A DNA stretch of 64,000 nucleotides from the NCBI RefSeq assembly GCF_003097515.1, contig NZ_CP029188.1:1574501-1638500 (forward strand), written 5' to 3'. Numbering within the stretch: the stretch's first letter is position 1; the number at the start of each line of letters is the position of its first letter. A program made the translations under genes and the position numbers. The notes under the pieces are model-generated. The model worked only from the letters and a program-made list of their open reading frames with translations. It did not search any database and was not told the DNA's origin. Positions 4,965-19,627 of the stretch are shown one piece after another. This DNA comes from Streptomyces tirandamycinicus (GTDB lineage Bacteria > Actinomycetota > Actinomycetes > Streptomycetales > Streptomycetaceae).

Positions 4965-6050
4965 TCAGCCGATCTCGGCGCCGAGGGCCTGCAGCGCCTC
5001 CGTCACGGGCTGGAAGAACGTCTCGCCGCCCGAGGAGCAGTCGCCGCTGCCGCCGGAGGTCAGGCCGATCGCGGCGTCCTCGGCGAAGAGCGAGCCGCCG
5101 CTGTCGCCGGGCTCGGCGCAGACGTTCGTCTGGATGAGGCCGTTGACGATCTGGCCGTCGCCGTAGTTCACGGTGGCGTCGAGGCCGGTGACCTCGCCGT
5201 CGTGGACCTGGGTGGTCGAGCCGCTGCGGGTGACCTGCATGCCGACGGTCGCGTCGCCCGCCCTGGTGATCTGCCGGGTGGTGCCGTCGTAGAGGTTGAC
5301 CTCGCTCGGCTGGGCGGTGCCGTCGCTGTACTTGACGAGTGCGAAGTCGTCCTCGGGGAACCGCGAGTCGAGCATGCTGCCGATCGCGGCGCCGCCCGCG
5401 GAGTCCGACCACTCGCTGCCGGTCTCACCGCAGTGCCCGGCCGTGACGAAGTGCGGGGCGCCGTCCTTGACGACGTTGAAGCCGAGCGAACAGCGGCCGC
5501 CGCCACTGTGGATGGCGTCACCGCCGGCGGCGAAGGGCTTGAACTCCCCGGCCGTCCTCTTCAGCTCCGCCTTCTCCCCGAGGCCCTCGACGACCTCCCG
5601 GAGCTTCGCCAGGTCCGCGCCCTCGACCGTGCGGTCGGCGGTGACGACCACCTTGTTGGTCACCGGGTCGGTCGCCCACGAGGTGCCCGGGATGGTGGCC
5701 CGGTCGGTGAGGGTCTGCCGGGCGGTCCTCAGCTCCGCCGGAGAGTTCTCGACGATTCTGGCCCTGCCTCCGGCCTCGCGTACGGCATCCGCCGCCGCCT
5801 CGTCGACCACGTTCATCACCAGGGCCTTGGCCTCGGCGTCGTAGTAGGCGCCGGCCGCGCTTCCGCCCAGGCTCTCGTGGAGCGTCGAGGCGAGGTTTCC
5901 GGCCGCCGAGGCGGAGAGCGTCTTCACCGTGACCGCGGACTTGTCCTCGCCGGCGTTCGCAGTCTGGAAGGTGACGCCGGCCGCCACCAGTGCGGCGACG
6001 GCTCCACCTGCCGCCGCCGCGCGCCTCTTGGGTATGCGTCGGTGCTTCAC
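4965..6050 (-). CDS. Streptogrisin-type secreted serine protease (S1E family)
   Basis: Secreted chymotrypsin-fold protease made as a pre-pro-enzyme, 361 aa. Basic signal peptide (KHRRIPKRR, then an Ala/Val core ending near TANA), an alpha-lytic-type propeptide to about residue 175, then the mature domain starting near AGGDAIHS. The catalytic triad is visible: His in FVTAGHCGE, Asp in FPEDDFALV, Ser in [11 protein letters not shown]. Paired cysteines flank His and precede the substrate pocket (CSSGGETFFQPV). GTG at 6050 follows a strong AGGAGGTCC site; longer starts add nothing typical of a signal peptide. A second paralogue lies at 18045-18950, but this one has a longer propeptide and more acidic surface loops. 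Confidence 0.93.
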   Translation of the reverse strand: MKHRRIPKRRAAAAGGAVAALVAAGVTFQTANAGEDKSAVTVKTLSASAAGNLASTLHESLGGSAAGAYYDAEAKALVMNVVDEAAADAVREAGGRARIVENSPAELRTARQTLTDRATIPGTSWATDPVTNKVVVTADRTVEGADLAKLREVVEGLGEKAELKRTAGEFKPFAAGGDAIHSGGGRCSLGFNVVKDGAPHFVTAGHCGETGSEWSDSAGGAAIGSMLDSRFPEDDFALVKYSDGTAQPSEVNLYDGTTRQITRAGDATVGMQVTRSGSTTQVHDGEVTGLDATVNYGDGQIVNGLIQTNVCAEPGDSGGSLFAEDAAIGLTSGGSGDCSSGGETFFQPVTEALQALGAEIG

Positions 6051-6475
6051 GTAGGACCTCCTGTGGGGGGCCGCGAACGGGCAAGTGGGGTGCCCGGACG
6101 CGGAGGATCGGGCGCCCACTATTCCGACGCGCGCCGGTAGCACACAAGGACGACTTCAGGACGCGCACATGAAACCGACAATGCGCCCTCTGCTTCTTCA
6201 CGACCCCCCGTCACCCCCGGGCCCGTACGGGTCGGTTCCGTTTGCGAACACCCCGCGCTACCGGCCCCTGGGCAGCAGGTAAGGACTAGTCCTGTCCGAA
6301 TCCCCGTGCCGGACGGGCTCATTGGGGACTTACGCCGGCCGCGCTCCGACGGGTAATCATCAGGGGGGCGGGGAATGCCAGGACGGTACTGCCGCACATG
6401 GCACATGTGCACGGCACTCACGGAATGTGCGGTATCTCCGGAATCCACGGAGGTCCACGGCGAAGGAGGCGGCGG
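6051..6475. promoter_or_regulatory. Divergent promoter region, protease / hydrolase, with a perfect palindrome
   Basis: This 425-bp divergent region contains the perfect 12-bp palindrome AGGACTAGTCCT at 6282-6293, a plausible dimer-binding site. A 37-codon open frame on the plus strand (6169-6282, ATG with AGGA seven bases upstream) ends in TAA immediately before the palindrome. Its sequence (MKPTMRPLLLHDPP...) resembles nothing I know, so I do not call it a gene. Confidence 0.4.
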
Positions 6476-7363
6476 GTGCGGCGGCGGGTGCACGCGTCGG
6501 ACGGGCGGCATCTGATGGTGGAGCGGCTGGGGGATCCGCGGGGCAGACCGGTCTTCCTGCTGCACGGCACCCCGGGCAGCCGTCTCGGACCGGCGCCGCG
6601 CGGGATGGTGCTGTACCAGCGGGGAATGCAGCTGATCGCCTACGACCGGCCGGGATACGGCGGTTCGGACCGGCTGGCCGGCCGCAGCGTGGCGGATGTG
6701 GTCGAGGACGTACGGGCGATCGCCGACGCGCTGGGGCTGGACCGGTTCGCGGTGGTGGGGCGCTCCGGCGGCGCACCGCACGCCCTGGCGTGTGCGGCGC
6801 TGCTGCCCGACCGGGTCACCAGGGCCGCGGCGCTGGTGACGCTCGCGCCGCGGGACGCGGACGGTCTGGACTGGTTCGAGGGCATGGCCGCGTCGAACGT
6901 GCTCGAGTACACGAGGGCCAGCGTCGACCCGGACGGGCTCACGGCGCGGTTCATCATGCGCTCGGCGGAGATCCGGCGCGACCCGGTCCGGCTCCTGGAC
7001 GACCTGCGCAGGGAACTCACCGATTCGGACCGGATGGTCGTCGCGGACGCCGGCGTGCGGTCGATGCTGCTGCGCAACTACCAGGAGGCGCTGCGCACCT
7101 CGGCGTACGGCTGGATCGACGACGCCCTCGCGTTCTGCAGCCCCTGGGGCTTCGACCCCGCCGGAATCTCCGCGCCCGTGCTGCTGTGGCACGGCGAGAA
7201 GGACGTCTTCTCGCCCGTCGGCCACTCCCGCTGGCTGGCGCAGCGCATCCCGGGGGTGACGGCCGTCCTGGAACCGGCCGCGGCCCACTTCGACGCGCTG
7301 CACGCGCTCCCCCGGATCCTCACCTGGCTGCTGGAGGACCACCCGGGGGACCCCGCCGGGTGA
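6476..7363 (+). CDS. Alpha/beta-fold hydrolase
   Basis: Alpha/beta hydrolase of unassigned substrate, 295 aa. The oxyanion motif HGTPGSRLG is near residue 43 and YDRPGYGGSD follows strand 4. The nucleophile elbow is GRSGGAPH (Ser in G-x-S-x-G). The acid is probably in LLWHGEKDVFSP and the catalytic His in the C-terminal PAAAHFDALH. GTG 6476 has AAGGAGG at 6463-6469 with a six-base spacer. An upstream ATG at 6398 would add an Arg-rich stretch without a ribosome site. Followed after 20 bp by a hairpin terminator. Confidence 0.85.
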   Translation: MRRRVHASDGRHLMVERLGDPRGRPVFLLHGTPGSRLGPAPRGMVLYQRGMQLIAYDRPGYGGSDRLAGRSVADVVEDVRAIADALGLDRFAVVGRSGGAPHALACAALLPDRVTRAAALVTLAPRDADGLDWFEGMAASNVLEYTRASVDPDGLTARFIMRSAEIRRDPVRLLDDLRRELTDSDRMVVADAGVRSMLLRNYQEALRTSAYGWIDDALAFCSPWGFDPAGISAPVLLWHGEKDVFSPVGHSRWLAQRIPGVTAVLEPAAAHFDALHALPRILTWLLEDHPGDPAG

Positions 7364-7604: not shown

Positions 7605-10600
7605 TCAGACGGCCAGCGGTTCCAGGTCGCGGTGGGTTCTGCGCTCGTCCCTGGCGATCCGGGTCAGCGCGTGCTCCTCCCCCAGCAGCCGCGCCAGTTC
7701 CTCCGCCGTCTCCGCCCGCAGCGCCGCGGCCTCGTCCTTGCGGCCCAGCGCGCCGAGGGTGACGGCGGTGTTGGAGGAGACGGCGAGGACCTCGGGGTGG
7801 TGGACGCCCAGCACCTCGCGCAGCCTCGTCACCGCCCGCCGCTCGGTCTCCAGCGCCGACTCCAGCTCGCCCAGGTCGGCCCGGGCGTTGGCGAGGTTGA
7901 CGGTGCAGAACAGGGTGTGCGGGTGGGCCGTGCCGAGGACGTCGGTCATCCGGCGGACGGCGGCCACCAGGAGCTGCTCCGAGGCTTCGGGATCGCCGCA
8001 GCCCCACTGGTAGATCCCGAGGTTGTTGATCGCGGCGAGGGTGTAGGGGTGCTTCGCGCCCGGCACCTTCGTGTACTGGTCGACGACCTCCTGGGCCAGG
8101 TCCCGGGCCGCCACCGGTTCCCCCGCCGCGAACAGGTCGGCCGCCAGGTTCAGATCGCAGGCGAGGGAGTCCGGGTTGGCCGAGGTGTACTTGGCGCGGT
8201 AGCGGTTGCGGGTGGCCGTCGTCAGCCGGCGGGCGTCCTCCAGCCGGCCGGCCCGCCGCAGCGACACCGCGAGGCTCTTGCCCGCCGCCAGGGTGCCGGG
8301 GAAGGCGCGGCCGAGGGTCCGCTTGTAGCTCTCGTAGGTGCGGCTGAGCAGACTGACGGAGTCCTCGTACCGGCCGACCTCGCGCAGGTCGCGGGCGAGC
8401 GAGGTGGCGGAGGAGAGCGTGTACGGATGCTCGGGGCCGAGGACCTCGGTACGGCGGTCGAAGACGTCCTGGTCGATCTCGCGGGCCCGCGCGTACTGGC
8501 CGACCATGCGCAGGTTCAGCGCCAGGTTGTTGGCGGCGGCCAGGGTGCGCGGGTGGGACTCGTGGAAGATCTGGCTGAACCCCTCGTGCGCCTCGGTGGC
8601 CAGTTCCATGGCCTTGCCGTACTGGCCGAGGGTGCCCAGGTCCATCGCCAGCCCGCTGGTGGTCATGTACGTGTGCGGGTGCGACGGGCCGAGCACGGCG
8701 CGCTGGCGCTCCAGGGTGACCTCGTCCAGTTCCCTGGCCTCCACGTAGCGGCCCTGCGAGCGGAAGATGTTGGAGAGGTGGAAACGCAGGTAGAGGTACT
8801 GCAGGTCGTCGTTGCCGAGCATCTCCCGCCAGGCTTCGCGCAGATCGTCGCCGAGGGCCCCGGCGGCCTGCCAGTCACCGCGCTTCCAGAGGTAGCGGAC
8901 CCGGTCGATGAGCAGCCGGCGGGTCTCGGGCTCCTTGCAGTACCGGGCCTCGGAGGGGCCGAGATGCGGCCAGATGGTGGCGAACCGCGGCCAGGTCTCG
9001 GGGTTGTCGATCGGTTCGTCGTCGTCGGGCCGGGCGCCGGCGAGGATGCGGTGGACGGCGTGCCGGGCGTCCCGCTGCTCCTCGTCGCTGAGCTGGGCCC
9101 GGATGACGGCCTGCACCAGCCGGTGCACCTGGATGGAGTTGGAGACCTGGTCGACCTTGGCGAGGGCGAACCGGCCGATCTCGCGGATGACGCGGCCGAG
9201 TACGAGCTTCTCCTGGAGGGAGGGGTCGTACGGCTTGAGCGCGTCGATCATCTCCTTGCTGTAGAGGAGGTTCGCCGAGATCGGCTCGGGGGCGAAGAAG
9301 GCGCAGAGCTGCAGCAGCCGCACCGCGGCCGGTGAGCGCTCCTTGAGGCGCTCGATGGAGACGTTCCAGGTCGCGGCCACCGGCTCCGGGTAGCCGGCGG
9401 GCTGGTTGAGCGCGAGGACGCGGGGCGCCTGCTGGGCGAGCTGCTCCAGATAGGCGGCGACGGGCGTGGCGGTCTCGGCGATCCACGCCGCGGCCTGCTC
9501 GACGGCGAGCGGCAGGTCGCCGACGGCGGCGGCGACCTGGTCGGCGTCCTCCAGGGTGAGTCCGGGCGCGCGGCGCTGGAGGTGCTCGACGGACTCCTCG
9601 CGGAGGAAGACGTCGACGGGCAGGGCGTCGCCGTACTGGGACCAGGTCTGGTTCCTGGAGGTGACGAGGATGTGGCCACCGCTGGGGAAGAACCGCTTGA
9701 GCTGCTCGGGGTCGTCGGCGTTGTCGAAGACCAGCAGCCAGCGGGAGGTCGGCACGCCCCGCCTGAGCAGGTCGACCGCCTCCTGCGAGGCGGCGGCCAT
9801 GTCCTCGCCGCCCTGGGCGCCGAGCCGGGTGGCGAGTTCGGCGAGTCCGGCGACGACGTCGTCGGTCTGCTCGGAGGAGATCCACCACACCAGGTCGTAG
9901 TCGGCCATGAAGCGGTGCACGTACTCCAGCGCGACCTGGGTCTTGCCCACGCCGCCGAGGCCGTACAGCGTCTGGGGCTGCGGCAGCACGACGGCCATGC
10001 CGCCGCCGAGCTGGTCCCGCATCCGCTCCAGGACGACGGACCGGCCGGTGAAGCCGGGGTTGCGGGCGGGAGCGTTCCAGATCTTGGGGACGGTGCCGGG
10101 GAACCGCGGGCCGGGCGCGACCCCGTCGGTGAGCTGGACCGGACGGTCGAGGGCGCGCAGCAGCGCGCTGGTGGCGTGCACCTCGTCGAGGCGGAAGAGG
10201 TCGACGGGGTTGCGGTCGATGTAGGGGGTGGTGAGGCGTACGTCGCCGACCCGCAGCGGCAGCAGATGGCGGCCGCGGCCGCCGCCCGGGTCCTCGGCCG
10301 CGGCCCGTTCCCACACCTGCACGGCGCGGGCGGACTTGAGGTAGGCGCTGGAGAGCAGGACGACCGTCCGGGCGGTGTTCTCGGGTGCGGGGAGGGCGGT
10401 GCCGTCCCCGGTCGGTTCCGCCGAGACGTCGCGCGGCACGACCCGGAAGCCGGCGCGGGTGAGGACGGACTCGATCCAGTCGGCCCACATGCGGTTCTCG
10501 GCGACGTAGCTGAGGAACAGGTCGGCGGGCAGCGCGGGCCGGCGGCGGGTGAAGGCGTCCCTGATCCGCAGTCTGGTCTCCTCGGCGACGGTGGGCATGG

Positions 10601-11537
10601 CGGTGATCTCGCCCTCGGTGATGACGGCGGTGAGCCGTTCGAAGGCGGAGAGCAGGGAGTTGGTGAGTCCGGCCTCGTCGCCGAAGGTCGCCAGGGTCTC
10701 CTCGTAGGCGTAGTAGGGGCGGTACGGGATCTCCACCGCGCCCCAGTAGGCGGTGAGTTCCTCACCGGAGAGGCCGTTGGGGAACCGGTCGAACTTCAGC
10801 CGGGCGAGGGCGCGGCCGGCGTCGGCCTTCTCCTTCTCGCCCTCGTCGATGCGCATGGGGACGGGCAGGACGCGGATGCCGCGGCCGCCGTAGCGCTCGT
10901 CGATCTGGCGGGCGACGGCGGCGGCGCCGTCGATGGACTGGTCGCTGAGGGTGAAGCAGTCGACGAGGACGTCCGGGAGGTGGACGGTGCAGATGTCCGC
11001 GATGTCGCTGAGCCCGGTGCGGCTGTCGATGAGGACGTAGTCGTAGTTGGCCTTCATGTCGTCGCGCAGTGCGTCGAAGAAGTGCCCGCCGCCGAGCCGG
11101 TCGTAGAAGTTGTCCCAGTCGAAGGTGGAGACGGTCGCCGAGTACTCGCGGTTCTGCCGGCCCGCGGAGACGAAGTCGAGGGTGCCGCCCTCGGGGAACT
11201 CCCAGCCGAGGTTCTCGGGGGTGAGGGAGACGGCGTGCGGCTGGATGCGCGCGTAGTCCCGGTGCCAGTCGTCGGGACGCTGCGCGGGGCTCGTCGCGGC
11301 CCACGCGTACTCGGTGATCAGGTCGATGACACCGGTGGTGGCGCCGAGCGTGGACGGGTCGAGGAAGGGGTGGAAGAAGCGGTGCAGGCCGGGTGCTTCC
11401 AGGTCCCAGTCGACGGCGAGGACCCGCTTGCCGTTGGCGGCGAGTATCCAGGCGGTGTTGGCCATGGCCATCGTCCGCCCGGTTCCTCCTTTGTACGAGT
11501 AGAACGTGACGATGCGTCCGTCACGACTGGCTGTCAT
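7605..11537 (-). CDS. fxsT: FxsT: ParA-like ATPase / TIR-like / NB-ARC / TPR protein of the Fxs system
   Basis: Large multidomain signalling ATPase of the FxSxx-COOH system, 1310 aa. Order: ParA/MinD-like ATPase with deviant Walker A (YSYKGGTGRT, residues 14-23) and VLIDSRTGLSD near 170-180; TIR-like domain from about 335 (DLFLSYVAENRMWADW) to 470; NB-ARC NTPase with P-loop YGLGGVGKTQVAL at about 520 and Walker B WLLVFDNADD; a winged-helix-like linker; then many tetratricopeptide repeats from about 880 to the end, with AxxLG/HPxTL periodicity. ATG 11537 with GGAGG six bases upstream overlaps the end of fxsC by 17 bp, so translation is coupled. Last gene of the operon. The architecture recalls STAND-type sensors; its activity and target are unknown. 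Confidence 0.92.
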   Translation of the reverse strand: MTASRDGRIVTFYSYKGGTGRTMAMANTAWILAANGKRVLAVDWDLEAPGLHRFFHPFLDPSTLGATTGVIDLITEYAWAATSPAQRPDDWHRDYARIQPHAVSLTPENLGWEFPEGGTLDFVSAGRQNREYSATVSTFDWDNFYDRLGGGHFFDALRDDMKANYDYVLIDSRTGLSDIADICTVHLPDVLVDCFTLSDQSIDGAAAVARQIDERYGGRGIRVLPVPMRIDEGEKEKADAGRALARLKFDRFPNGLSGEELTAYWGAVEIPYRPYYAYEETLATFGDEAGLTNSLLSAFERLTAVITEGEITAMPTVAEETRLRIRDAFTRRRPALPADLFLSYVAENRMWADWIESVLTRAGFRVVPRDVSAEPTGDGTALPAPENTARTVVLLSSAYLKSARAVQVWERAAAEDPGGGRGRHLLPLRVGDVRLTTPYIDRNPVDLFRLDEVHATSALLRALDRPVQLTDGVAPGPRFPGTVPKIWNAPARNPGFTGRSVVLERMRDQLGGGMAVVLPQPQTLYGLGGVGKTQVALEYVHRFMADYDLVWWISSEQTDDVVAGLAELATRLGAQGGEDMAAASQEAVDLLRRGVPTSRWLLVFDNADDPEQLKRFFPSGGHILVTSRNQTWSQYGDALPVDVFLREESVEHLQRRAPGLTLEDADQVAAAVGDLPLAVEQAAAWIAETATPVAAYLEQLAQQAPRVLALNQPAGYPEPVAATWNVSIERLKERSPAAVRLLQLCAFFAPEPISANLLYSKEMIDALKPYDPSLQEKLVLGRVIREIGRFALAKVDQVSNSIQVHRLVQAVIRAQLSDEEQRDARHAVHRILAGARPDDDEPIDNPETWPRFATIWPHLGPSEARYCKEPETRRLLIDRVRYLWKRGDWQAAGALGDDLREAWREMLGNDDLQYLYLRFHLSNIFRSQGRYVEARELDEVTLERQRAVLGPSHPHTYMTTSGLAMDLGTLGQYGKAMELATEAHEGFSQIFHESHPRTLAAANNLALNLRMVGQYARAREIDQDVFDRRTEVLGPEHPYTLSSATSLARDLREVGRYEDSVSLLSRTYESYKRTLGRAFPGTLAAGKSLAVSLRRAGRLEDARRLTTATRNRYRAKYTSANPDSLACDLNLAADLFAAGEPVAARDLAQEVVDQYTKVPGAKHPYTLAAINNLGIYQWGCGDPEASEQLLVAAVRRMTDVLGTAHPHTLFCTVNLANARADLGELESALETERRAVTRLREVLGVHHPEVLAVSSNTAVTLGALGRKDEAAALRAETAEELARLLGEEHALTRIARDERRTHRDLEPLAV

Positions 11538-12873
11538 CCGAGTCCTCCGCATCCGGCGCATGGTCGAGCGTGTCGGGGATGTAGTGCGTGGTGGCGTACT
11601 CGGCCGCCATGGGGCCGCGCAGCCTCGGACGTTCGGTGTGGCTGCCGCCGGCGGGCGGATAGACCTGGGCGTGGCGCAGGTACTGCTGGGCGGCCGCCTC
11701 CACGACCTGGGGCAGGATCTGGCCGAACGCCTCCATGCTCGGTACGCCGCGGGCGGCGGCGCGGCAGGCGGCGCGGCCCTGGCCGAGCTTGGTCGGCAGG
11801 GTCTGTGCGAGTTTGGCGCTGAGGGTGCCCTCGGCGCCGCGGCTCTGGGGGTCGTCGCGGCTGAAGGGGACGACGACGCTGACCCAGGGCCGGTTCTCGG
11901 CGTCGAAGGCGGCGAGCTGCTCGCGTCGGTCGTCGTCCTCCAGGGCCCAGCGGTCGACGATCAGCAGCTCCGGTCTGGTGGGGGCCTGTTTGCTGTCGAG
12001 CGGCGTGCTGTCGTGGTCGAACGAGGCGATGGTGGCCTGGTAGTTGAGGGTCCGCACCAGATCGCGGGCGACGTAGGCGAGCGGCCGGTGCACCTCGGGG
12101 TAGTAGGGGTTCCAGTCCTGCGGCATGTCGCCGTAGTACTGCGGGTCCCGTCCCGGGGGCAGGTCGTGCAGGGTCGGGGCGGCCACGGTCAGCTGGATGG
12201 GGCGGGGGCCGGTGCGGCGCGGGCCGGCGGCGTCCGGGGGCCCGAAGGCGCTCGGGGCCTGCCGGTAGTCGAGCGGTCTGCCGGGCCCGACGGCGGTGGT
12301 GTCCGCGACGCTGACGATGCGCTTGGCGAGTTCGTAGACCGCCCGCTCGTACTCCTCGGCGAATATCCGCAGTTTGATCAGCCCGTAGAGCCCGTCGGTG
12401 ACGTAGCGGTCGCCGAAGGCCCGGTGGTTGAACTGCAACCGCTCGGCGGGACCGGGTAGTTGCTCGGCCGGCACCGGCACCCACAGCGCGGGCACGATGG
12501 CCTCGGCGGGCCGGTTGCTCTTGGCCTGGTGGAAGATCTCCCGCTGGGCGAAGGCGTACCACTCCTTGCCGCACATCTCGCTGGCGAAATAGCGGGGGGA
12601 GAAGAGCGGGACGAAGACCCGGCAGGTGGCGAGGACTTCGGCGAGCCGCTCGGACCACCCCTCGCCGGAGCGTATCTCCCGGTCCATGAATCCCGCCTGC
12701 GCCCCGGCGGGGAGATCGGTCATGGCCATCACATGGCCGCACAGGTCCCGGAAGAGCCGCTCCACCCACATGTCGGGATCCGGCACACCCGCTCCGTACC
12801 TCGGTGTGTGCGCATAGCTCAAGAAGAAGTACGGCCTATGGTCCGCCGCCCGCTGCTGCGATGACGCCTGCAC
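11521..12873 (-). CDS. fxsC: FxsC: TIR-like protein of the Fxs system
   Basis: TIR-like protein that accompanies FxsA/FxsB in actinobacteria. The N-terminal domain begins YFFLSYAHTPRYG, the TIR strand-A signature, followed by VFVPLFSPRYFASEMCGKEW (TIR strand D and helix). A second, less conserved part follows from about residue 220. TIR domains can act as adaptors or NAD-cleaving enzymes; I cannot tell which applies. The start is uncertain: I use GTG 12873 (450 aa; purine-rich GGGGGG three bases before it) because the conserved part starts shortly after, but ATG 12936 would give 471 aa. The gene follows the AAC(3)-like gene and overlaps fxsT by 17 bp. Confidence 0.88.
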   Translation of the reverse strand: MQASSQQRAADHRPYFFLSYAHTPRYGAGVPDPDMWVERLFRDLCGHVMAMTDLPAGAQAGFMDREIRSGEGWSERLAEVLATCRVFVPLFSPRYFASEMCGKEWYAFAQREIFHQAKSNRPAEAIVPALWVPVPAEQLPGPAERLQFNHRAFGDRYVTDGLYGLIKLRIFAEEYERAVYELAKRIVSVADTTAVGPGRPLDYRQAPSAFGPPDAAGPRRTGPRPIQLTVAAPTLHDLPPGRDPQYYGDMPQDWNPYYPEVHRPLAYVARDLVRTLNYQATIASFDHDSTPLDSKQAPTRPELLIVDRWALEDDDRREQLAAFDAENRPWVSVVVPFSRDDPQSRGAEGTLSAKLAQTLPTKLGQGRAACRAAARGVPSMEAFGQILPQVVEAAAQQYLRHAQVYPPAGGSHTERPRLRGPMAAEYATTHYIPDTLDHAPDAEDSDDSQS

Positions 12874-12978
12874 ACGCCCCCCGTCCCGTATGAACACCCG
12901 CACTCGGTGACGACGAGGTGCGAGCGGTCCAATCATTCCGGAGCAGACGTTGCTCCATCCCCTGGTCCTTCGGTCAAA

Positions 12979-13755
12979 TCAACGCCGCTTTTCGGACATC
13001 CACGTCACTGCATGGTCCACCGCATCGGTGATCGAGAACAAGGTCGCCGTCGTCCCGCCCAGTTGTGTCCGCCGTTCGGCATTCCAGGAGAAGGCGGCTC
13101 CGATGGCCTCGAAATCGCGGTCGTCGAGTTCCACGTCCAGGTATTCCGTCCATGTGGGTCCGTGCGCCCCGCGCACCACACAGGCGTACCGGCGCAGCGG
13201 CGCGCCGATTCGGTACTCCGCCAGGTGGAAGGCGGTGCAGACGGAGAAACCCACATTGATCATCAATACCCGCGCCCCGGCCCGGTAGAGCGCCCCGAGG
13301 GGGGATTCCTCGCCGAGGTGGCAGGTGAGCGGATGCCGGGAGAGGAGTTCCGCCGCCCGCCGGCCGAGCGCGGCGAACGACGTCTGGGGATGGGCGCTGC
13401 GCACCGCGCCCGGGGCGGTCCGCACGCACTCGGCCAACCGGCCCATCCCGGTGCTCGGTGTGGTGGCCGGGTCGAAGGCGGGCATGGTGGCCCGAAAGGC
13501 CGCCGCCTGAGTGGGTGTCATCCCCGCCACGCGCCGCAGATGGGCGGAGGACGTGTCGGAGTTCCCGGCGGTGAAGGCGGGGACCACGAGCGTGCCCTCC
13601 TCGCCGACCGCCCTCAGCAGCGCGTCGCGGAGCCCGGCGGCGCGGATGCCGGTGCCGCCGAGGCCCGCGTGGACGAGGACCGTCTCCCCGGTCCGCAGAC
13701 CCAGTTCCGTCAGCTGCCGCGTGAGCCCGTCGCGCTCAGCGAGCGTGCCGGTCAC
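12979..13755 (-). CDS. AAC(3)-family N-acetyltransferase-like protein in the Fxs operon
   Basis: 258-aa protein of the aminoglycoside 3-N-acetyltransferase fold. Family landmarks: ETVLVHAGLGGTGI near residue 24, EEGTLVVPAFT, an SAHPQTSFAALG segment, and INVGFSVCTAFHLAEY, the position of the acetyl-CoA/catalytic His region. AAC(3) enzymes transfer acetyl from CoA to an amino group. Located inside an RiPP operon, it more likely modifies the peptide or a precursor than confers drug resistance (inference). GTG 13755 overlaps the fxsB end by 20 bp and has GGGAAGAGG six bases upstream. Confidence 0.85.
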   Translation of the reverse strand: MTGTLAERDGLTRQLTELGLRTGETVLVHAGLGGTGIRAAGLRDALLRAVGEEGTLVVPAFTAGNSDTSSAHLRRVAGMTPTQAAAFRATMPAFDPATTPSTGMGRLAECVRTAPGAVRSAHPQTSFAALGRRAAELLSRHPLTCHLGEESPLGALYRAGARVLMINVGFSVCTAFHLAEYRIGAPLRRYACVVRGAHGPTWTEYLDVELDDRDFEAIGAAFSWNAERRTQLGGTTATLFSITDAVDHAVTWMSEKRR

Positions 13756-15958
13756 GGTCCGCCTCTTCCCAGAGCAGCGCCAGCAGCGCCTTCCCGCCGG
13801 CGGTGAGTTCCGCGGCGCGGCCCAGGGTGTCCAGGGCCCTCAGGGCGGCTTCCGCCCCGTCCGGGTCGAAGGCGCCGAGCCCGGTGCGTTCGTACGCCCC
13901 CGCCAGCAGCTCGGACACCGGGACCGGCGTCTCCCGCCACGGCGCCGGATGTGTCCACAGGCCGTCGTCGGCGTAGAGGTCGGTGACCTCCAGCAGGGCC
14001 CGCAGCCGCGCCCGGCGCCAACCGCGCAGCAGCAGCAGCGCCAACTCCCCGGAGCCGGCCCGCAGCGGGACGCCCAGGGCACCGAGCCCGTGCCGCCCGA
14101 CCGCGGGTCCCGGGCCGTGGACGGGGGTCAGCGTGGTGAGCGACGCGGCGGCCGCCGCGGCCTGTTCCGGTGCGCGGGCGCGCAGCAGTCCCCAGGCCCG
14201 GGCCAGCCGGTCGGTCCATTCCGCCGCTTCGCCGTGACCGAGCCGGGGCGGCACCGGGACGTCGAAGCAGTCCCGGTACGGGTCGAGGTCGTCGATGGCG
14301 AGGTCGGGCGCCCCGTCCCGGCCGAGCCTGCGGACGGGCCGCCAGCCGGCACCCGGTTCGTCGGGTCGCGGGATGTGCGTCTCGCCGTCGCCGGCCCGTA
14401 CCAGGAGTCCCTTCTCGACGGGCCGCACCTCGGCGGTGCCGCCCGGTTCCGCCCCGGTGAGCCGGAGTTCGCCGAGCGTGGGCAGCAGCAGCGTCCCGCC
14501 CTCGTACGGGACGGGGACCGCGAGGTCGAGGCCGCGGCGGACGACGGCGGCGGCGACCGAGGCGGCGAGCCTGGCGGCCGGGCGCAGTGCCGCGTCCGGC
14601 CCGCCCTCGTCCAGGGCGTCCAGGGCGCCGAGCAGCCAGCCGCGGGTGTAGGGGTGGGTCAGTACGCCGTCGAGCGCGCCGGGATGCCGGTCGACGTCGC
14701 CGGCCAGCTCCCAGGCGCGGGCCCATGCGTCGCCGCCGCGGCCGTCCAGCTCCCGGTGGAGGCCGGCGAGGAGCAGCCGCGTCAGCTCGTGCTGCTCGGT
14801 CCGCAGTTCCCCGTCGTCGGCGACCGCGGCGGGCACCGACCGGGCGGCGGTGCGGTGCTCGATTCCGCGGACGAGGGCCTCGAGGTCGGTGCAGTAGACG
14901 GACGGGTTGTCGAAGCCGGTGCCGGAGCGGTAGCGGTGGGTGTAGAGGCCGCCGCCGCAGGAGCGGACGACGGGGCAGTCCCGGCAGGTGCCGCCGACGC
15001 CGGCGAGGCCGAGCTGGCGGGCCCGGACGCCCGGGTGGGCGGCGACCTCGTCGAGGGTGTGGGTGAAGACGTCGAAGCCGGTGGCCGCCGCGCCCTCGTA
15101 GGCGGTCTTGAGCGAGTCGACCTGCTCCAGGGTGCCGTCGGTCTCGACGACGACGAGGTCGGTGGGGGTGAGGCCGAGCGATTCGGTGAGTCCGGGTCCC
15201 CCGGAGAGCGTGGACAGCACCGAGGCGAAGAGCCGCACCGGCACCCGGCGGCCCTGCCGGTCCCAGCGGTCGAAGACGGTCAGCAGCCAGTCGGCGTACG
15301 CGGTCGGGGAGCCGTCCGGCCTGGGCGGCGGCTCGTCCCATGTGGCGTGCGGCAGCAGGAAGTCGACGCGCGGGGGGTCGAGTTCCATCAGCGCGTCGTG
15401 GACGGCGACGGGGTCGTTGGCGACGTCGACGGTGCACAGCAGGCCGAGGTTCAGATGGCGCCAGCGGTCCGTGCCCAGCAGTGCGACGGCCTTCAGCACC
15501 TGCGGGTGGCTGCTGCGCCCGTCCGCGAAGCGCCGGTGGCGGTCGTTGGCGGCTTTGTCGCCGTCGAGGGAGATGCCGACCCTCACGCCGAACTCGTCGA
15601 AGAGTTCCAGATAGCGGGGGCTCAGCTGGAGGCCGTTGGTGTGGATGCGCAGGTCGAGGGCGGCGACACCGTCGAGGGCCCGGGTGAGTTCCTCACAGAC
15701 CCGGCGTAACCGGGCGGGGCCGGCGAGCAGCGGCTCCCCTCCGTGCAGGATCACTGACACGGAGGGCAGGGCATGTTTCTCGGCATGCTCGGCCAGTCGC
15801 AGAGCTGTCCAGGAGATCGCCTCGTCAGAGAGTGCTTTCGGGCGGGTGCGCCAGCTCTGATCAGCGTGTTCGTAGATGTAGCAGTGGTCGCAGGCGAGAT
15901 CGCATCTGCTGTGGACCTTCAGTACGATCTCGCGGAACGGGACCACGGGTCGGGTCAT
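13736..15958 (-). CDS. fxsB: FxsB: radical SAM/SPASM cyclophane-forming peptide maturase
   Basis: Maturase that, in characterised homologues, links the aromatic ring of Phe to the beta carbon of the residue two positions on in the Fxs precursor. 740 aa. The radical SAM cluster motif C-x3-C-x2-C is at C19, C23, C26 (SRCDLACDHCYIY). GGEPLL, an IHTNG strand and GISLDGDKAANDRHR follow. The SPASM auxiliary cluster region contains CRDCPVVRSCGGG and a later VYC near residues 340-375. From about 400 to the end is the domain that in relatives carries an HExxH motif; here the equivalent segment reads LLLLRGWRRARLRALLEV (positions about 13998-14050), so the putative metal site is lost. ATG 15958 lies 50 bp after fxsA. 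Coupled to the AAC(3)-like gene. Confidence 0.93.
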   Translation of the reverse strand: MTRPVVPFREIVLKVHSRCDLACDHCYIYEHADQSWRTRPKALSDEAISWTALRLAEHAEKHALPSVSVILHGGEPLLAGPARLRRVCEELTRALDGVAALDLRIHTNGLQLSPRYLELFDEFGVRVGISLDGDKAANDRHRRFADGRSSHPQVLKAVALLGTDRWRHLNLGLLCTVDVANDPVAVHDALMELDPPRVDFLLPHATWDEPPPRPDGSPTAYADWLLTVFDRWDRQGRRVPVRLFASVLSTLSGGPGLTESLGLTPTDLVVVETDGTLEQVDSLKTAYEGAAATGFDVFTHTLDEVAAHPGVRARQLGLAGVGGTCRDCPVVRSCGGGLYTHRYRSGTGFDNPSVYCTDLEALVRGIEHRTAARSVPAAVADDGELRTEQHELTRLLLAGLHRELDGRGGDAWARAWELAGDVDRHPGALDGVLTHPYTRGWLLGALDALDEGGPDAALRPAARLAASVAAAVVRRGLDLAVPVPYEGGTLLLPTLGELRLTGAEPGGTAEVRPVEKGLLVRAGDGETHIPRPDEPGAGWRPVRRLGRDGAPDLAIDDLDPYRDCFDVPVPPRLGHGEAAEWTDRLARAWGLLRARAPEQAAAAAASLTTLTPVHGPGPAVGRHGLGALGVPLRAGSGELALLLLRGWRRARLRALLEVTDLYADDGLWTHPAPWRETPVPVSELLAGAYERTGLGAFDPDGAEAALRALDTLGRAAELTAGGKALLALLWEEADRDRHAR

Positions 15959-16008
15959 TCCGCCAGTCTAGGGCAGCCTGCCCGCCGTACGGACGGTCCG
16001 GAACCGGA

Positions 16009-16173
16009 CTAGAGCGCGGAGTTGAACGTGGACATCCGTGCGGAACGGTCGGCACCGGCGGGGCGCACGCGATCCAGTTTCCTGGCCGCCTCGGCGTCTC
16101 GCACATCGATCTCGGCGAGGGGCACCCGGCCCTTTTTCACGGAAGCAAAGGTGACTGAGGTCTGGAGGGTCAC
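16009..16173 (-). CDS. fxsA: FxsA: FxSxx-COOH RiPP precursor peptide
   Basis: 54-residue precursor, easily missed because it is short and starts with GTG. The leader contains VPLAEIDVRDAEAARKLDRV, typical of this family; the core is the C-terminal MSTFNSAL with the terminal pattern F-x-S-x-x-COOH (Phe50, Asn51, Ser52, then Ala-Leu and TAG). FxsB is expected to join Phe50 to Ser52 in a three-residue cyclophane. GTG 16173 has AGGA at 16182-16185 (minus strand) with an eight-base spacer. First gene of the operon fxsA-fxsB-aac-fxsC-fxsT. No cysteine is present, so it is not a lanthipeptide or sactipeptide. Confidence 0.93.
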   Translation of the reverse strand: MTLQTSVTFASVKKGRVPLAEIDVRDAEAARKLDRVRPAGADRSARMSTFNSAL

Positions 16174-16243
16174 GGCGGCCGTCCTAGGTCAAATCGTGCT
16201 GACGGGGGGGAGCACCGGGCACCGTTGCAGTGTCGGCGGCACG

Positions 16244-16271
16244 ACTTTACTCTCATGACCACCCGCAGCAA
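16244..16271 (-). promoter_or_regulatory. Candidate promoter of the fxs operon
   Basis: On the minus strand TTGCTG (16271-16266) and TAAAGT (16249-16244) are separated by 16 bases, giving a 5' leader of about 65 bases before fxsA. Pattern match only. Confidence 0.3.
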
Positions 16272-16380
16272 CTCGGCACGGAGCGCTGGAACAAAAGCGT
16301 GGCGCGAGTATGCCCCACTCCGAACGGAACAAGCCATTCCATCGAACGAGTGAAGCCACCATCCGCAGAGGGGGGTACGG

Positions 16381-17313
16381 ATGACCGGCATTCCCGGCCA
16401 TCTGCAAAGCATGGTCTTTCGCAATGCCGATCTGCCGGCACTGTTCCACCGGGCGGACGAGACGGCCGTCGACCGGCAGCGCGAGGCGGTCAAGGGAACC
16501 CGGCTGCAGCTTCTCCTGCTGGTGCTGGGCTCGGTGTTCGCGGTGCTGCCGTGGCGCGGGACGATCGGCGGCTCCTTCCAGCTCATGGGTCTGCTCAGCG
16601 CGGCGGCGTACGCCTGGGTGCTGGTGGCCGGCTTACGCGGGACCCGCCGCCGGGCGAAGTCGCACTGGCAACTGAACCGCTCCGCGGCCGAGTTCATACG
16701 GTCGATGTGCTGGCGCTACGCCGTGCACGGGGCGCCCTTCGACTCCGGCTCGCCCGATCCCGACCGGCTGTTCACGACCCGGCTGGAGGAGGGGCTCCGG
16801 GAACTGCGCAAGGTCGGCTGGGCGGACCCCCGCGAGGACGGCGGCAGCGCGGTCGACGGCGAGCTGATCACCACGCCGATGCGGCTGCTGCGGGAGAAGG
16901 TCTTCAGCGTACGCAAGGAGACGTATGTCAGGGACCGTCTGATCGAGCAGCGCAACTGGTACCACCGGCGTGCGGAGATCTCACGGCGTGCCACCGCGCT
17001 GTGGACGGTGATAATCAGTCTGCTCACCTCGCTCGCGCTGCTGTTCGGGGTGCTGCGCACGTTCTCCGTCACCGACTCGGCCGAACCGGTGCCGCTGCTG
17101 TCCGCGGCGGCGGCCGCGTGTCTGGCCTGGAGCGAGATCCGGCGCCACCAGCCGCTGATCGCGGCCCACTCCCTGGTGGAGGAGGACCTGGCGGCGATCC
17201 ACATCGCGATGGAGACCTCGGTGACGGAGGAGCAGTGGCCCTCGGCCGTGTACGAGACGGAGCGGATCGTCTCGCCCCAGCACACCGACTGGCTGGTGCA
17301 GCACCGCAGTTGA
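16381..17313 (+). CDS. SLATT/DUF4231-type membrane protein
   Basis: 310-aa membrane protein divergent from the fxs operon. Two pairs of helices are visible: LQLLLLVLGSVFAVLPW with LMGLLSAAAYAWVLVAGL (residues 43-82), and LWTVIISLLTSLALLFGVL with LLSAAAAACLAWSEI (about 206-260), each flanked by basic, soluble segments (GTRRRAKSHWQLNRSAAEF). This is the layout of SLATT-domain proteins, predicted pore-forming effectors that pair with nucleotide-sensing partners such as SLOG or SMODS proteins. ATG 16381 follows GAGGGGGG at six bases. The convergent neighbour at 17438-17917 is a SLOG-fold protein, which supports the call. No function has been shown. Confidence 0.8.
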   Translation: MTGIPGHLQSMVFRNADLPALFHRADETAVDRQREAVKGTRLQLLLLVLGSVFAVLPWRGTIGGSFQLMGLLSAAAYAWVLVAGLRGTRRRAKSHWQLNRSAAEFIRSMCWRYAVHGAPFDSGSPDPDRLFTTRLEEGLRELRKVGWADPREDGGSAVDGELITTPMRLLREKVFSVRKETYVRDRLIEQRNWYHRRAEISRRATALWTVIISLLTSLALLFGVLRTFSVTDSAEPVPLLSAAAAACLAWSEIRRHQPLIAAHSLVEEDLAAIHIAMETSVTEEQWPSAVYETERIVSPQHTDWLVQHRS

Positions 17314-17437: not shown

Positions 17438-17917
17438 TCAGTCGCGCTCCACCCCGTCGCACCACACCACCGTCACGGGCCTGCCGCGCTCCCGCGCGTA
17501 CCGGACGATGTCGCCGGTGCCACCGAGCCCGCGGGCGGGCCGGCCGTCCCAGACCGCCAGGAGCCGGTCGCAGTTGTCGGCGATGTAGGTGCCGGCCGCG
17601 TAGTACGCCTCGTCCGTGGAGTGGGGGAACGCCAGCCGGACCTCCTGGCTGGCCCGGCGCCGGAGGCGCCGGTAGCAGGCCAGCGCGCCGGGGTCGCCGA
17701 AGCCCTCCTCGTAGTCCCCGCTCGGGATGACCACGGTGAGCTCGGCACCGCGGGCGAGGGCCAGGTCGGCGAAGATCTGGTCGGCCCCCTCGGCCAGGCT
17801 GGAGAGCGCCTGCAGCGGACCCTGGTGGCCGCAGAGCACCGCCTTCATCCCGGCCAGCACGTGCGGCATGGCCGCTGAGGGGATGTCCCGGTGTCCGGTC
17901 ACTCCGATGCGCTTCAT
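17438..17917 (-). CDS. SLOG-fold (Rossmannoid nucleotide-sensing) protein
   Basis: 159-aa Rossmann-like protein. It opens with GVTGHRDIP (GxTGHR, the SLOG N-terminal motif). SSLAEGADQIFADLAL follows, then LTVVIPSGDYEEGF, and a late glycine-rich segment WDGRPARGLGGTGDIV that would contact a phosphate group. SLOG domains are proposed to bind or process nucleotide-derived ligands and commonly neighbour SLATT proteins. ATG 17917 has GGGGGG five bases upstream. Convergent with the SLATT gene, so the pair is not in one operon. Ligand unknown. Confidence 0.78.
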   Translation of the reverse strand: MKRIGVTGHRDIPSAAMPHVLAGMKAVLCGHQGPLQALSSLAEGADQIFADLALARGAELTVVIPSGDYEEGFGDPGALACYRRLRRRASQEVRLAFPHSTDEAYYAAGTYIADNCDRLLAVWDGRPARGLGGTGDIVRYARERGRPVTVVWCDGVERD

Positions 17918-17980
17918 CGCGCCCCCCGATCCGTTGTGGCCTACCGCTCCTGCATCCTCTCAAAAGTGTGCAATACGTCG

Positions 17981-18006
17981 AGCCCCCGCCGGTGCCGGCG
18001 GGGGCT
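17981..18006 (-). terminator. Terminator of sprB
   Basis: Perfect 12-bp inverted repeat, arms AGCCCCCGCCGG and CCGGCGGGGGCT with TG between them, 39 bp after the sprB stop codon (minus strand), followed by a short pyrimidine-rich stretch on that strand. Confidence 0.8.
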
Positions 18007-18044
18007 CTTGGTGCCCGCTGTCGCCCCGGTCTCCCGGGAACGGG

Positions 18045-18950
18045 TCAGTAGACGCTGACGCCGTAGGCGCTCAGTGCCTCGGTGACGGGCTGGTAGAAGG
18101 TCGTACCGCCGCTGGAGCAGTTGCCGCTGCCGCCGGAGGTGAGACCGATCGCCCGGCTGCCGGAGTACAGCGGGCCGCCGCTGTCGCCGGGCTCCGCGCA
18201 CACATTGGTGCGGATCATGCCGTAGACGACGTCGCCGCCGCCGTAGTTGACCGTGGCGTTGAGGCCGGTGACGGTGCCGCTGTGGGTGCCCGTGGTGGAG
18301 CCGCGGCGGGTCACGGCCATGCCGACCGTGGCGTTGGCCGCGCTGGTGATGTCGACGCTGCCGACGGTGCCCGGCTTGGAGATGGAGGTGTTGCTGTAGC
18401 GCACGATGCCGTAGTCGTTGCCCGGGAAGCTGGAGCCCGCGGTCGGACCGAGGACGGTGGTACGGGACGAGTTCGCGTACCAGGTGCCCGCACCGTCGGT
18501 GCAGTGGCCCGCCGTCAGGAAGTACGAGGTGCCCGCGCTGTTGCGGACGTTGAAGCCGAGCGAGCAGCGCCAGCTGGTGGCGTAGACGGCGTCGCCGCCC
18601 GAGATGAGCTTGCTGAACCTGCCGGGGGTGCGCTCGATGCGGAGGGCGTCGGCGTTGGCACCGGCCTCCCGCTTGATCTGCGCGATCTCGGCCTGGGAGA
18701 CGGTGGAGTCGGCGGTCACGACAAGGGTGTTGGTCGCCTTGTCGACATGCCAGGCGGTGCCTGCCACATCGGCGGTCAGCACGGCGTCGCTCGCGGCGGA
18801 GAGCTGGGACGCGCTGAAGGCGGCGGGGGTCTCGGCGGCACCGGCGGTGGGGACGGCCAGTGCGGCGGCGGCGACGAGACCGGTCGCCACGGCGAGCAGA
18901 CGGGTGCGTCTCGCCACACCGTGGGTGGGAGTGGTGCGCTTGATCCTCAC
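18045..18950 (-). CDS. sprB: Streptogrisin B-like serine protease
   Basis: Secreted S1E protease, 301 aa, closely matching my memory of S. griseus protease B. Signal peptide [18 protein letters not shown]..., a short propeptide ([11 protein letters not shown] ... [10 protein letters not shown]), and a mature domain from about [10 protein letters not shown]. Catalytic His in FLTAGHCTD, Asp in FPGNDYGIV, Ser in [14 protein letters not shown]-terminal SAYGVSVY as in SGPB. GTG 18950 is preceded by GGGAGGA. It is shorter than the paralogue at 4965 mainly in the propeptide. Terminator at 17981-18006. Confidence 0.95.
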
Positions 18951-19627
18951 TTCTCGTTCCTCCCGAGGGGAATCGGGGGCCCGCCTGTGGGGTGACGGAC
19001 CCGTGAGGCGCAGTCAGGGGCCGGGGATGTGTCCGGATTCCGGTCACGTTGTGCCCCTGACAAGCGCTGTTCGGGAGTATTCGGCGGGTCAACTGGCCGC
19101 GCAAGGGCACCTTTCGGCCGTACGGCGACCCGGCGCACCGGCCGGTCCCGTGGATGTGCTATTCCCGTGGCGGGTACCGTCCGCGCCGGGCCGGACGGAT
19201 CGGCCGGTGGCGGGATCTCCCTCCCCAGCGGGTGGTTCGTGCGCCCGGTGGGCCCGGGCCGGACGGCACGGCCGACGGCACGCCGCCGGGGCCGCGCCCT
19301 CGGGCGGCGACCGTCCGCGGCCCGGGCCGCCGTTCCCGTACCGGCCCCGGGATGACCGGAATTCACTCTTCCGTCGAGCTGCGGCGGCGCCGGGGGACGC
19401 CCCGGTGCCCGGCACCCCGTCGGCGGCTCCGATCCCCGTCGGGTACGGCCGACCGCTCCCCACCGGAATCGAGTCCCGGCAGGTCTCCCAGACGTCCGGC
19501 CCGGCCGTCTCCCCGGCCCGTTCCTCCTTCGCACACCACGGGTCCGGCCCGACCGCTCACACGGCGAGGCCCCTTGCGGACACGGTGGCACCGGGGGACC
19601 GCGGGACGGCCTCAGTCGGCCGTACGG
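18951..19627. other. Intergenic region upstream of sprB, no convincing gene
   Basis: 677 bp between sprB and the end of the DUF5685-like gene, which also reads leftwards. TTGACC (minus strand, near 19085) is a possible -35 for sprB, but no good -10 follows. Several long open frames exist on both strands because of the GC content; none has a ribosome site or a recognisable protein. Confidence 0.4.

Follow-up and report, generated by a model that had tools for sequence, protein, structure and literature searches.

A stretch of 64,000 nucleotides of Streptomyces tirandamycinicus (contig NZ_CP029188.1, positions 1,574,501 to 1,638,500), referred to below as the window, was analysed around its Fxs operon, a set of genes coding for a short precursor peptide, a radical SAM enzyme and proteins with TIR and NB-ARC domains. 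On the minus strand fxsA, fxsB, an AAC(3)-like gene, fxsC and fxsT follow each other, with overlaps or short gaps, from 7605 to 16173. The positions and names given to these five genes in an earlier, sequence-only reading are confirmed by the open reading frames (ORFs) and by the scores of the family models. The same reading described the operon as complete, which cannot be upheld: the block additionally holds genes for an alpha/beta hydrolase and a SLATT protein, both overlooked there, and a SLOG gene. It is therefore composed of eight genes, namely hydrolase, fxsT, fxsC, AAC(3)-like, fxsB, fxsA, SLATT and SLOG, as reported in Table 1.

Table 1. Features of the eight-gene block and its edges. 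Positions are those of the window; bit scores refer to the family model named.
Feature	Position	Strand	Evidence and remarks
Alpha-lytic-type protease gene, left edge, outside the block	4965-6143	-	PF02983, PF00089
Alpha/beta hydrolase (ABH)	6398-7363	+	PF00561, 77 bits; convergent with fxsT
fxsT, ParA-like - TIR - NB-ARC - TPR	7605-11561	-	ATG at 11561, or at 11537, overlapping fxsC
fxsC, TIR and FxsC C-terminal domain	11521-12936	-	NF040588, 234.6 bits; TIGR04276, 236
AAC(3)-fold acetyltransferase-like gene, optional	12979-13755	-	PF02522, 241 bits
fxsB, radical SAM/SPASM cyclophane maturase	13736-15958	-	TIGR04269, 590.9 bits (cut-off 370); NF040587 "lost HExxH" extension, 457.6
fxsA, precursor peptide, 54 aa	16009-16173	-	GTG start; C-terminal ...MSTFNSAL; TIGR04268, 37.9 bits (cut-off 28)
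FNSAL core, extreme C terminus of FxsA	16012-16026	-	F-x-S-x-x-COOH pattern
Shared intergenic region, divergent fxsA/SLATT	16174-16380	.	Between the two genes
SLATT_3-SLATT_1 membrane protein, predicted pore-type effector	16381-17313	+	PF18184, 125.5 bits; PF18181, 129.1 bits
SLOG-fold protein, 159 aa	17438-17917	-	Predicted structure; no Pfam match, no meaningful PDB sequence match
Alpha-lytic-type protease gene, right edge, outside the block	18045-18950	-	PF00089, PF02983

The edges of the block were established by comparison with related genomes. The DUF5685 and acyl-CoA dehydrogenase genes lying beyond the two proteases were used to find the same site in relatives, the DUF5685 marker being present in 23 of the 26 genomes searched. 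Nine of the 26 carry fxsB, SLATT and hydrolase, three have no marker (G112, G072, G056) and one (G144) was left out, so that 13 block-less genomes were examined. In six of these (G127, G048, G009, G068, G060, G097) the two protease genes adjoin on one strand; their open frames are 133 to 1117 bases apart, measured stop to stop, versus 11.9 kb in the window. DUF5685 and then the dehydrogenase follow in the order of the window at five of the six empty sites, while in G097 DUF5685 lies on the opposite side and the site is therefore rearranged. Five further genomes (G052, G044, G106, G124, G115) are uninformative, because one protease was not found in the stretch. The last two retain the hydrolase alone, either between the proteases (G040; L196/L238) or beside one of them (G091; L195), probably as a trace of block loss or as an early stage of the block. 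In most informative relatives the block is thus gained or lost as a unit, with the hydrolase alone in two. The secreted proteases, which adjoin each other also where the block is absent, mark the site, and for the same reason were discarded as processing enzymes of FxsA.

The order of the block in the window is also found in L148, L149, L152 and L162, in stretches reaching about 1.5 kb past the hydrolase and about 6 kb or more past SLOG, where no alpha-lytic-type proteases were found. Taken with the empty sites, this sets the unit as hydrolase to SLOG, about 11.5 kb. As for the insertion junctions, no 12-mer is common to both flanks, the intergenic DNA being too diverged, and no tRNA gene lies within positions 1-30000 of the window. 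Two ORFs used as early neighbour queries, 6119-7342 (minus strand) and 17727-18995 (plus strand), were dropped, the first being antisense to the hydrolase and the other to the second protease.

The linkage of the eight genes was evaluated on loci from 80 named Streptomyces (L017-L096), which are close kin since they are the best 80 of 404 FxsB matches, and on 40 stretches from more distant genomes. Presence was counted in the 113 loci with enough flank, by using score floors of 150 for SLATT and hydrolase, 100 for SLOG, AAC(3) and FxsC, and 400 for FxsT. FxsT was found in 107 of them, FxsC in 105, the hydrolase in 99, SLATT in 90, SLOG in 79 and the AAC(3)-like gene, which is therefore optional, in 63. 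The hydrolase is convergent within 2.5 kb in 80 of the 107 FxsT loci. Further subsets were 41 chosen genomes in one linkage search, and 57 of 121 loci clustered in another, where a filter on G+C content at third codon positions (GC3) undercounts FxsC and AAC(3). At the level of the class, FxsC matches occur in 41 of 393 genomes, and in 36 above cut-off, against none of 14 control genomes, which places the five-gene finding beyond chance. SLATT (E <=1e-3) occurs in 23 of the 393; in 13 of these genomes, which include all 11 matches above 200 bits, it is within 8 kb of FxsC, and the remaining ten genomes have no FxsC match. Of 38 hydrolase matches of at least 260 bits, among 59 chosen genomes, 36 have an FxsB gene at a distance of about 9 kb or less; the exceptions are G091 and G040. 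Among the 14 FxsB-less genomes of the 59, only G091 has such a hydrolase, the next best match scoring 186 bits.

These data bear on the possibility that SLATT, SLOG and hydrolase share the site by chance, the true unit being the five Fxs genes. Near fxs, SLATT is either divergent from fxsA or directly downstream of fxsT, the latter in one clade whose five-gene cassette has the reverse orientation between hydrolase and SLATT. Such an inversion, as if the cassette were separable, and the two genomes with a lone hydrolase speak for chance neighbourhood. On the other hand, the three genes are absent along with fxs at the six informative sites, the same set occurs in the protease-less stretches, and every SLATT match above 200 bits adjoins fxs. 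A different order is seen in another family, where L198 has SLATT upstream of fxsB and SLOG on the same strand; in L199 SLATT lies beyond AAC(3). In addition, another chromosomal site carries SLATT and hydrolase as a pair of equal orientation, beyond which a citrate synthase gene lies in several cases. Chance neighbourhood is held to be improbable. In f15, one of the other families in whose loci neither SLATT nor SLOG was found, all seven loci have the hydrolase, and so does L198, which makes eight of eight. A further layout is seen in f16 (L207, L209-L211, L213-L218), where FxsB is matched as two separate parts, encoded opposite to the two FxsT-like genes that enclose them; these loci match neither hydrolase nor SLATT nor SLOG, and contain no FxSxx-ending ORF by the pattern used.

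FxsA ends in F-x-S-x-x, as precursors of FxSxx-COOH systems do, and is the sole match above the TIGR04268 cut-off in its own 7.29-Mb genome, by a genome-wide profile search. In 108 of 121 loci FxsB is preceded by an ORF with such an end, a count in which the motif itself was the search key. In L140 (G029:C12) an ORF about 300 bp upstream of FxsB is a putative precursor with a tandem multi-core end FNSYVPSSFNSYVPSGFNSYVSSGFNSYVG. FxsB is of the radical SAM/SPASM type proper to these systems, with CxxxCxxC kept in 120 of the 121 sequences, and is assigned to a family that NCBI names cyclophane-forming. The family of MscB, IPR026335, is presumably the same as FxsB. A cyclophane on FxsA is predicted from the family of FxsB, the F-x-S core and the likeness to MscB. 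The latter forms a link from C4 of Phe to the beta carbon of Ser, as described in PMC11002830.

HExxH, the intact motif of alpha-ketoglutarate-dependent HExxH hydroxylases (aKG-HExxH), is lost from FxsB of the window, so that its second half was excluded as an active hydroxylase or protease. Section 24 of PMC7159879 treats the HExxH protein of FxSxx systems as a peptidase, the part which is inactivated here; a radical-SAM-fused HExxH member is described as a hydroxylase in PMC12636437, where PflC and PosC also cut the peptide backbone. Extensions keeping the motif (HEFQHVK and alike) are found in 21 of 121 loci, for instance L150, L153-L161, L163, L165 and L166, and also in L198. A rule by which SLOG occurs only with an FxsB that has lost HExxH is true inside the 121 loci, as none of the 21 has SLOG, and fails outside them: L198 combines an HExxH-bearing FxsB with SLOG, and L199 and L200 an HExxH ORF with SLOG. 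With no dedicated leader protease in the block and the HExxH domain inactivated, the gene set suggests a peptide that is not cleaved, although the hydrolase could do so. The earlier remark that neither transporter nor protease genes are present stands in as far as Pfam detects no transporter and no dedicated leader protease in the block, and has to be amended for the secreted proteases which flank it and for the hydrolase, which also matches, more weakly, the serine aminopeptidase family S33 (38 bits).

Both FxsC and the TPR protein FxsT, the other partners expected in FxSxx-COOH systems, score above the cut-offs of their models (NF040588 and TIGR04276; NF040586). FxsT gives 148 bits with the KGGVGR-type ParA model NF047398, 51.7 with TIR_2 (PF13676), 34.4 with NB-ARC (PF00931) and 1060.7 with NF040586. 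The NTPase motifs of STAND/NB-ARC proteins are all found, the P-loop Lys (K540), the Walker B Asp (D613) and the Pro of GxP (P684) in 113 of 113 sequences and the sensor Arg (R636) in 112. The TIR domain of FxsT, by alignment only, has no conserved Glu at the CxxE position across the same 113 sequences; at the 95% level 6% of its columns are conserved, the ParA part reaching 31%. The ParA-like part is the best conserved region of FxsT, and is matched in part by the PADLOC candidate defence family PDC-M28B. Its KGGTGRT motif (residues 24-30, window 11472-11492) has Arg in place of the canonical P-loop Lys, a replacement shared by 112 of 113 FxsT.

In FxsC the position of the catalytic Glu of NAD-cleaving TIR domains, aligned with CxxE of RUN1, is occupied by Glu125. 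NAD cleavage, considered earlier for FxsC and FxsT alike, is therefore narrowed to FxsC as the candidate, the Glu being kept in one and missing, by alignment, in the other. Among 111 sequences, from the window and 106 other loci, the residue is Glu in 106 and Gln in five. The latter would suit a non-enzymatic TIR scaffold, the output of the system being FxsT assembly or another partner; sequence scores to solved TIR domains are also weak, and fold matches include non-enzymatic TIRs. Retention of Glu125 in a family whose mean column identity is 41% (59 sequences) speaks against such a scaffold, as do the nearest TIRs to the predicted fold, which include SPARTA, AbTir, RUN1 and SARM1; we take these four, partly from the titles of structure entries, to bind or cleave NAD. 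A scaffold is judged quite unlikely, and FxsC, by virtue of Glu125, is the likely enzyme of the block. From the alignments we infer a division of labour between the two TIR domains, in which FxsC would be the enzyme and FxsT the adaptor. In six stretches (L127, L134, L158, L160, L161, L165) two FxsT matches are found, mostly together with two FxsC matches, and L127 and L134 additionally have two FxsB matches; such doubled loci suggest several sensors or effectors per peptide locus.

The remaining proteins were characterized by family models, alignments and predicted structure. The hydrolase keeps its S123/D269/H297 triad in 100 of 100 aligned sequences. The AAC(3)-like protein belongs to the PF02522 fold family and scores 143 bits with the NCBI AAC(3) model, below its curated cut-off of 270; its nearest solved chain by sequence is FrbF (3sma, 155.7 bits), and His177 is present in 67 of 67 sequences. 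In L044 a short AAC(3)-like stretch (12254-12490, 27 bits) lies between fxsB and fxsC, as if the gene had decayed. The 159-residue protein beside SLATT is predicted to adopt the Rossmann-like fold of the SLOG superfamily. No match was obtained by a sigma-70 consensus scan of the region between fxsA and SLATT. SLATT and SLOG domains are modules linked to nucleotide signals, and are the likely output of the block. Both have been proposed for conflict systems based on such signals, with SLATT as the predicted pore, in the accounts of PMC7159879 and PMC9503650.

FxsC was also searched outside chromosomes, and was found in 5 of 72,556 plasmid records and, at E <=1e-5, in none of 50,697 phage records. 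The plasmids had been considered as carriers of the whole block, a notion abandoned because three of the five records contain FxsC fusions instead. In L222 (NZ_CP108204.1) a protein of 1524 residues starts with a SAV_2336-type part, continues with FxsT-type TPRs (NF040586, 381 bits) and ends in a complete FxsC (236 and 211 bits); next to it are encoded an AAA ATPase and a caspase-VMAP-M2 protein. L223 (NZ_CP109474.1) is similar by annotation and profile, while in L224 (NZ_CP108290.1) a SAV_2336-FxsC fusion lies beside an annotated MoxR ATPase gene and a VMAP-C protein. No FxsB profile match is present in these three stretches. In L222 and L223, however, the left end of the stretch interrupts a gene annotated as radical SAM, at a distance of about 8 kb from the fusion; in a plasmid-wide FxsB search the three plasmids are not among the best 20 of 118 matching records. 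The TPR-FxsC fusion speaks for a single complex in which FxsC and FxsT-type TPRs act together, and for FxsC as a mobile effector part.

These systems are known in part. Stand-alone FxSxx systems of actinobacteria were outlined by Kaur et al. in 2020 (PMC7159879 section 24, citing Haft and Basu 2011), and share with the window the FxSxx peptide, the radical SAM/SPASM enzyme, an AP-ATPase (NB-ARC) with TIR, the TPRs and a variant MinD/ParA domain; that section makes no mention of SLATT, SLOG, hydrolase, the AAC(3)-like gene or the block edges. FxSxx systems with TIR, NB-ARC, TPR and a ParA-like domain, and the chemistry of the FxsB family in outline, are thus already known. The SLATT/SLOG/hydrolase arm was not found linked to FxSxx systems in the texts searched, PMC7159879 among them in the parts concerned, and no study of FxsC, FxsT or the role of Fxs was found among the matches listed for open-access literature, the field covered. 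We take to be new the eight-gene block with its edges, the SLOG gene, the split of the TIR domains into enzyme and adaptor, and the TPR-FxsC fusion.

Other systems are comparable in single features. Triceptides (MscB, XncB, OscB) have cyclophane-forming enzymes, a name which NCBI also gives to the family of FxsB, and, in the Phe-Ser link of MscB, a counterpart to the F-x-S core, according to PMC11002830; the Fxs peptide differs in sitting among TIR/NB-ARC genes, with no transporter found in the block, and is known here from its gene. Like Thoeris, which combines the TIR protein ThsB with the SLOG-bearing ThsA, the block holds a TIR enzyme candidate and a protein of predicted SLOG fold; here, however, SLOG is a separate small protein beside SLATT, and an NB-ARC/TPR protein and a modified peptide are added. 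No Pfam match to the SIR2 or Macro domain of the Thoeris effector is found in the block proteins. Nor do these show any Pfam match to MoxR, vWA or VMAP, which are present in the plasmid relatives: L222-L224 have FxsC fused within systems like the MoxR-vWA-VMAP ternary ones treated by Kaur et al. (2020), two of the fusions including FxsT-type TPRs. Anti-phage lanthipeptides of Streptomyces, in section 14 of PMC12360287, are likewise ribosomally synthesized and post-translationally modified peptides (RiPPs) acting inside the cell; their chemistry is different, and no TIR/NB-ARC circuit is described for them in that section.

On the gene set, its linkage and edges, the motifs and the predicted folds, a flow of signal, a role for the peptide and a use against phages may be proposed. 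The eight genes would form an intracellular, peptide-regulated alarm, similar to nucleotide-binding leucine-rich repeat (NLR) receptors, in which a TIR-made signal opens a SLOG/SLATT pore; we hold this reading tentatively, giving it somewhat less than an even chance. FxsB would join the Phe and Ser of the C-terminal FNS segment of FxsA, in the manner of MscB on its own substrate. Uncleaved, FxsA would remain intracellular and present its fixed FxSxx-COOH end to the TPR region of FxsT, which would bind it much as TPR peptide receptors bind their ligands. A trigger, for example phage takeover, would break or change this binding, so that FxsT assembles and recruits FxsC by TIR-TIR contact. FxsC would then turn NAD+ into a nucleotide signal, sensed by SLOG, and SLATT would permeabilise the membrane; processing or silencing, of the peptide or else of the signal, would fall to hydrolase and AAC(3)-like enzyme. 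As to the peptide, we lean towards its holding the sensor off rather than switching it on. A bolder version, in which the block is a portable RiPP-regulated NLR cassette, the cyclophane peptide being a password whose loss or alteration during phage takeover fires TIR, SLOG and SLATT and kills the infected cell, is regarded as unlikely. If it held, a bacterial NLR would, to our knowledge for the first time, be seen to guard a ligand that is a post-translationally modified peptide.

The earlier idea of a peptide-gated TIR/NB-ARC device is in keeping with SLOG and SLATT in the block and with the plasmid VMAP fusions; it was already in print in outline, and had been built on an incomplete gene set. 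Its wider form, a signalling or anti-phage device, fits a peptide wired to TIR/NB-ARC conflict parts, although phage defence itself finds no direct support. Several observations weigh against the alarm reading. Many Fxs loci lack SLATT and SLOG, and a search of 20 loci from other families found neither; the SLOG protein resembles YpsA/DprA rather than ThsA; and the defence-system scan by PADLOC gave partial matches only, to the ParA-like part of FxsT and to FxsB.

Two other functions deserve consideration. The block may be a toxin-like RiPP pathway, with modified FxsA as the effector, self-poison or exported toxin, and FxsC and FxsT as its regulators. A "peptide toxin or signal" is offered in section 24 of PMC7159879, and intracellular anti-phage lanthipeptides are reported in Streptomyces by the review PMC12360287. 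Set against this are the plasmid VMAP-type systems, with fused FxsC and no FxsB match in those stretches, the presence in the block of SLATT, already a predicted membrane effector, and the lack of any exporter in the block by Pfam; such a pathway appears unlikely. Export in particular, as an antibiotic or bacteriocin, was discarded, since FxsA has no hydrophobic stretch and no exporter was found in the block by Pfam, in agreement with the earlier view that the product is not a secreted antibiotic.

Alternatively, the peptide may report the state of the cell to FxsT, the TIR output tuning growth, as in a developmental or stress regulator. In favour of this are the FxsB-like matches (E <=1e-3) in 136 of 150 genomes of the family, some of them weak and probably belonging to other radical SAM enzymes, and the lack of FxsC in the phage records. 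The window-type block, however, is patchy and cassette-like, TIR, NB-ARC, SLOG and SLATT together are known or predicted parts of conflict systems, and FxsC on plasmids is found within VMAP-type systems. We consider a regulator of this kind to have a small chance, and retain the peptide-regulated alarm as the preferred reading. Should it be true, RiPP chemistry would be joined to NLR-type immunity. Many Streptomyces and relatives carry operons of the Fxs type. Known edges make the block an 11.5-kb piece which can be deleted or transplanted, with a likely enzyme residue in Glu125 of FxsC and a likely output in SLOG/SLATT, and reduce the role of the peptide to an either/or question, guarded ligand or trigger.

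Apart from the block, a DNA search revealed short repeated matches in G000:C1 at 6504743-6528750. Three of these follow each other at a spacing of 4,650 bp, a pattern resembling that of a modular megasynthase region.

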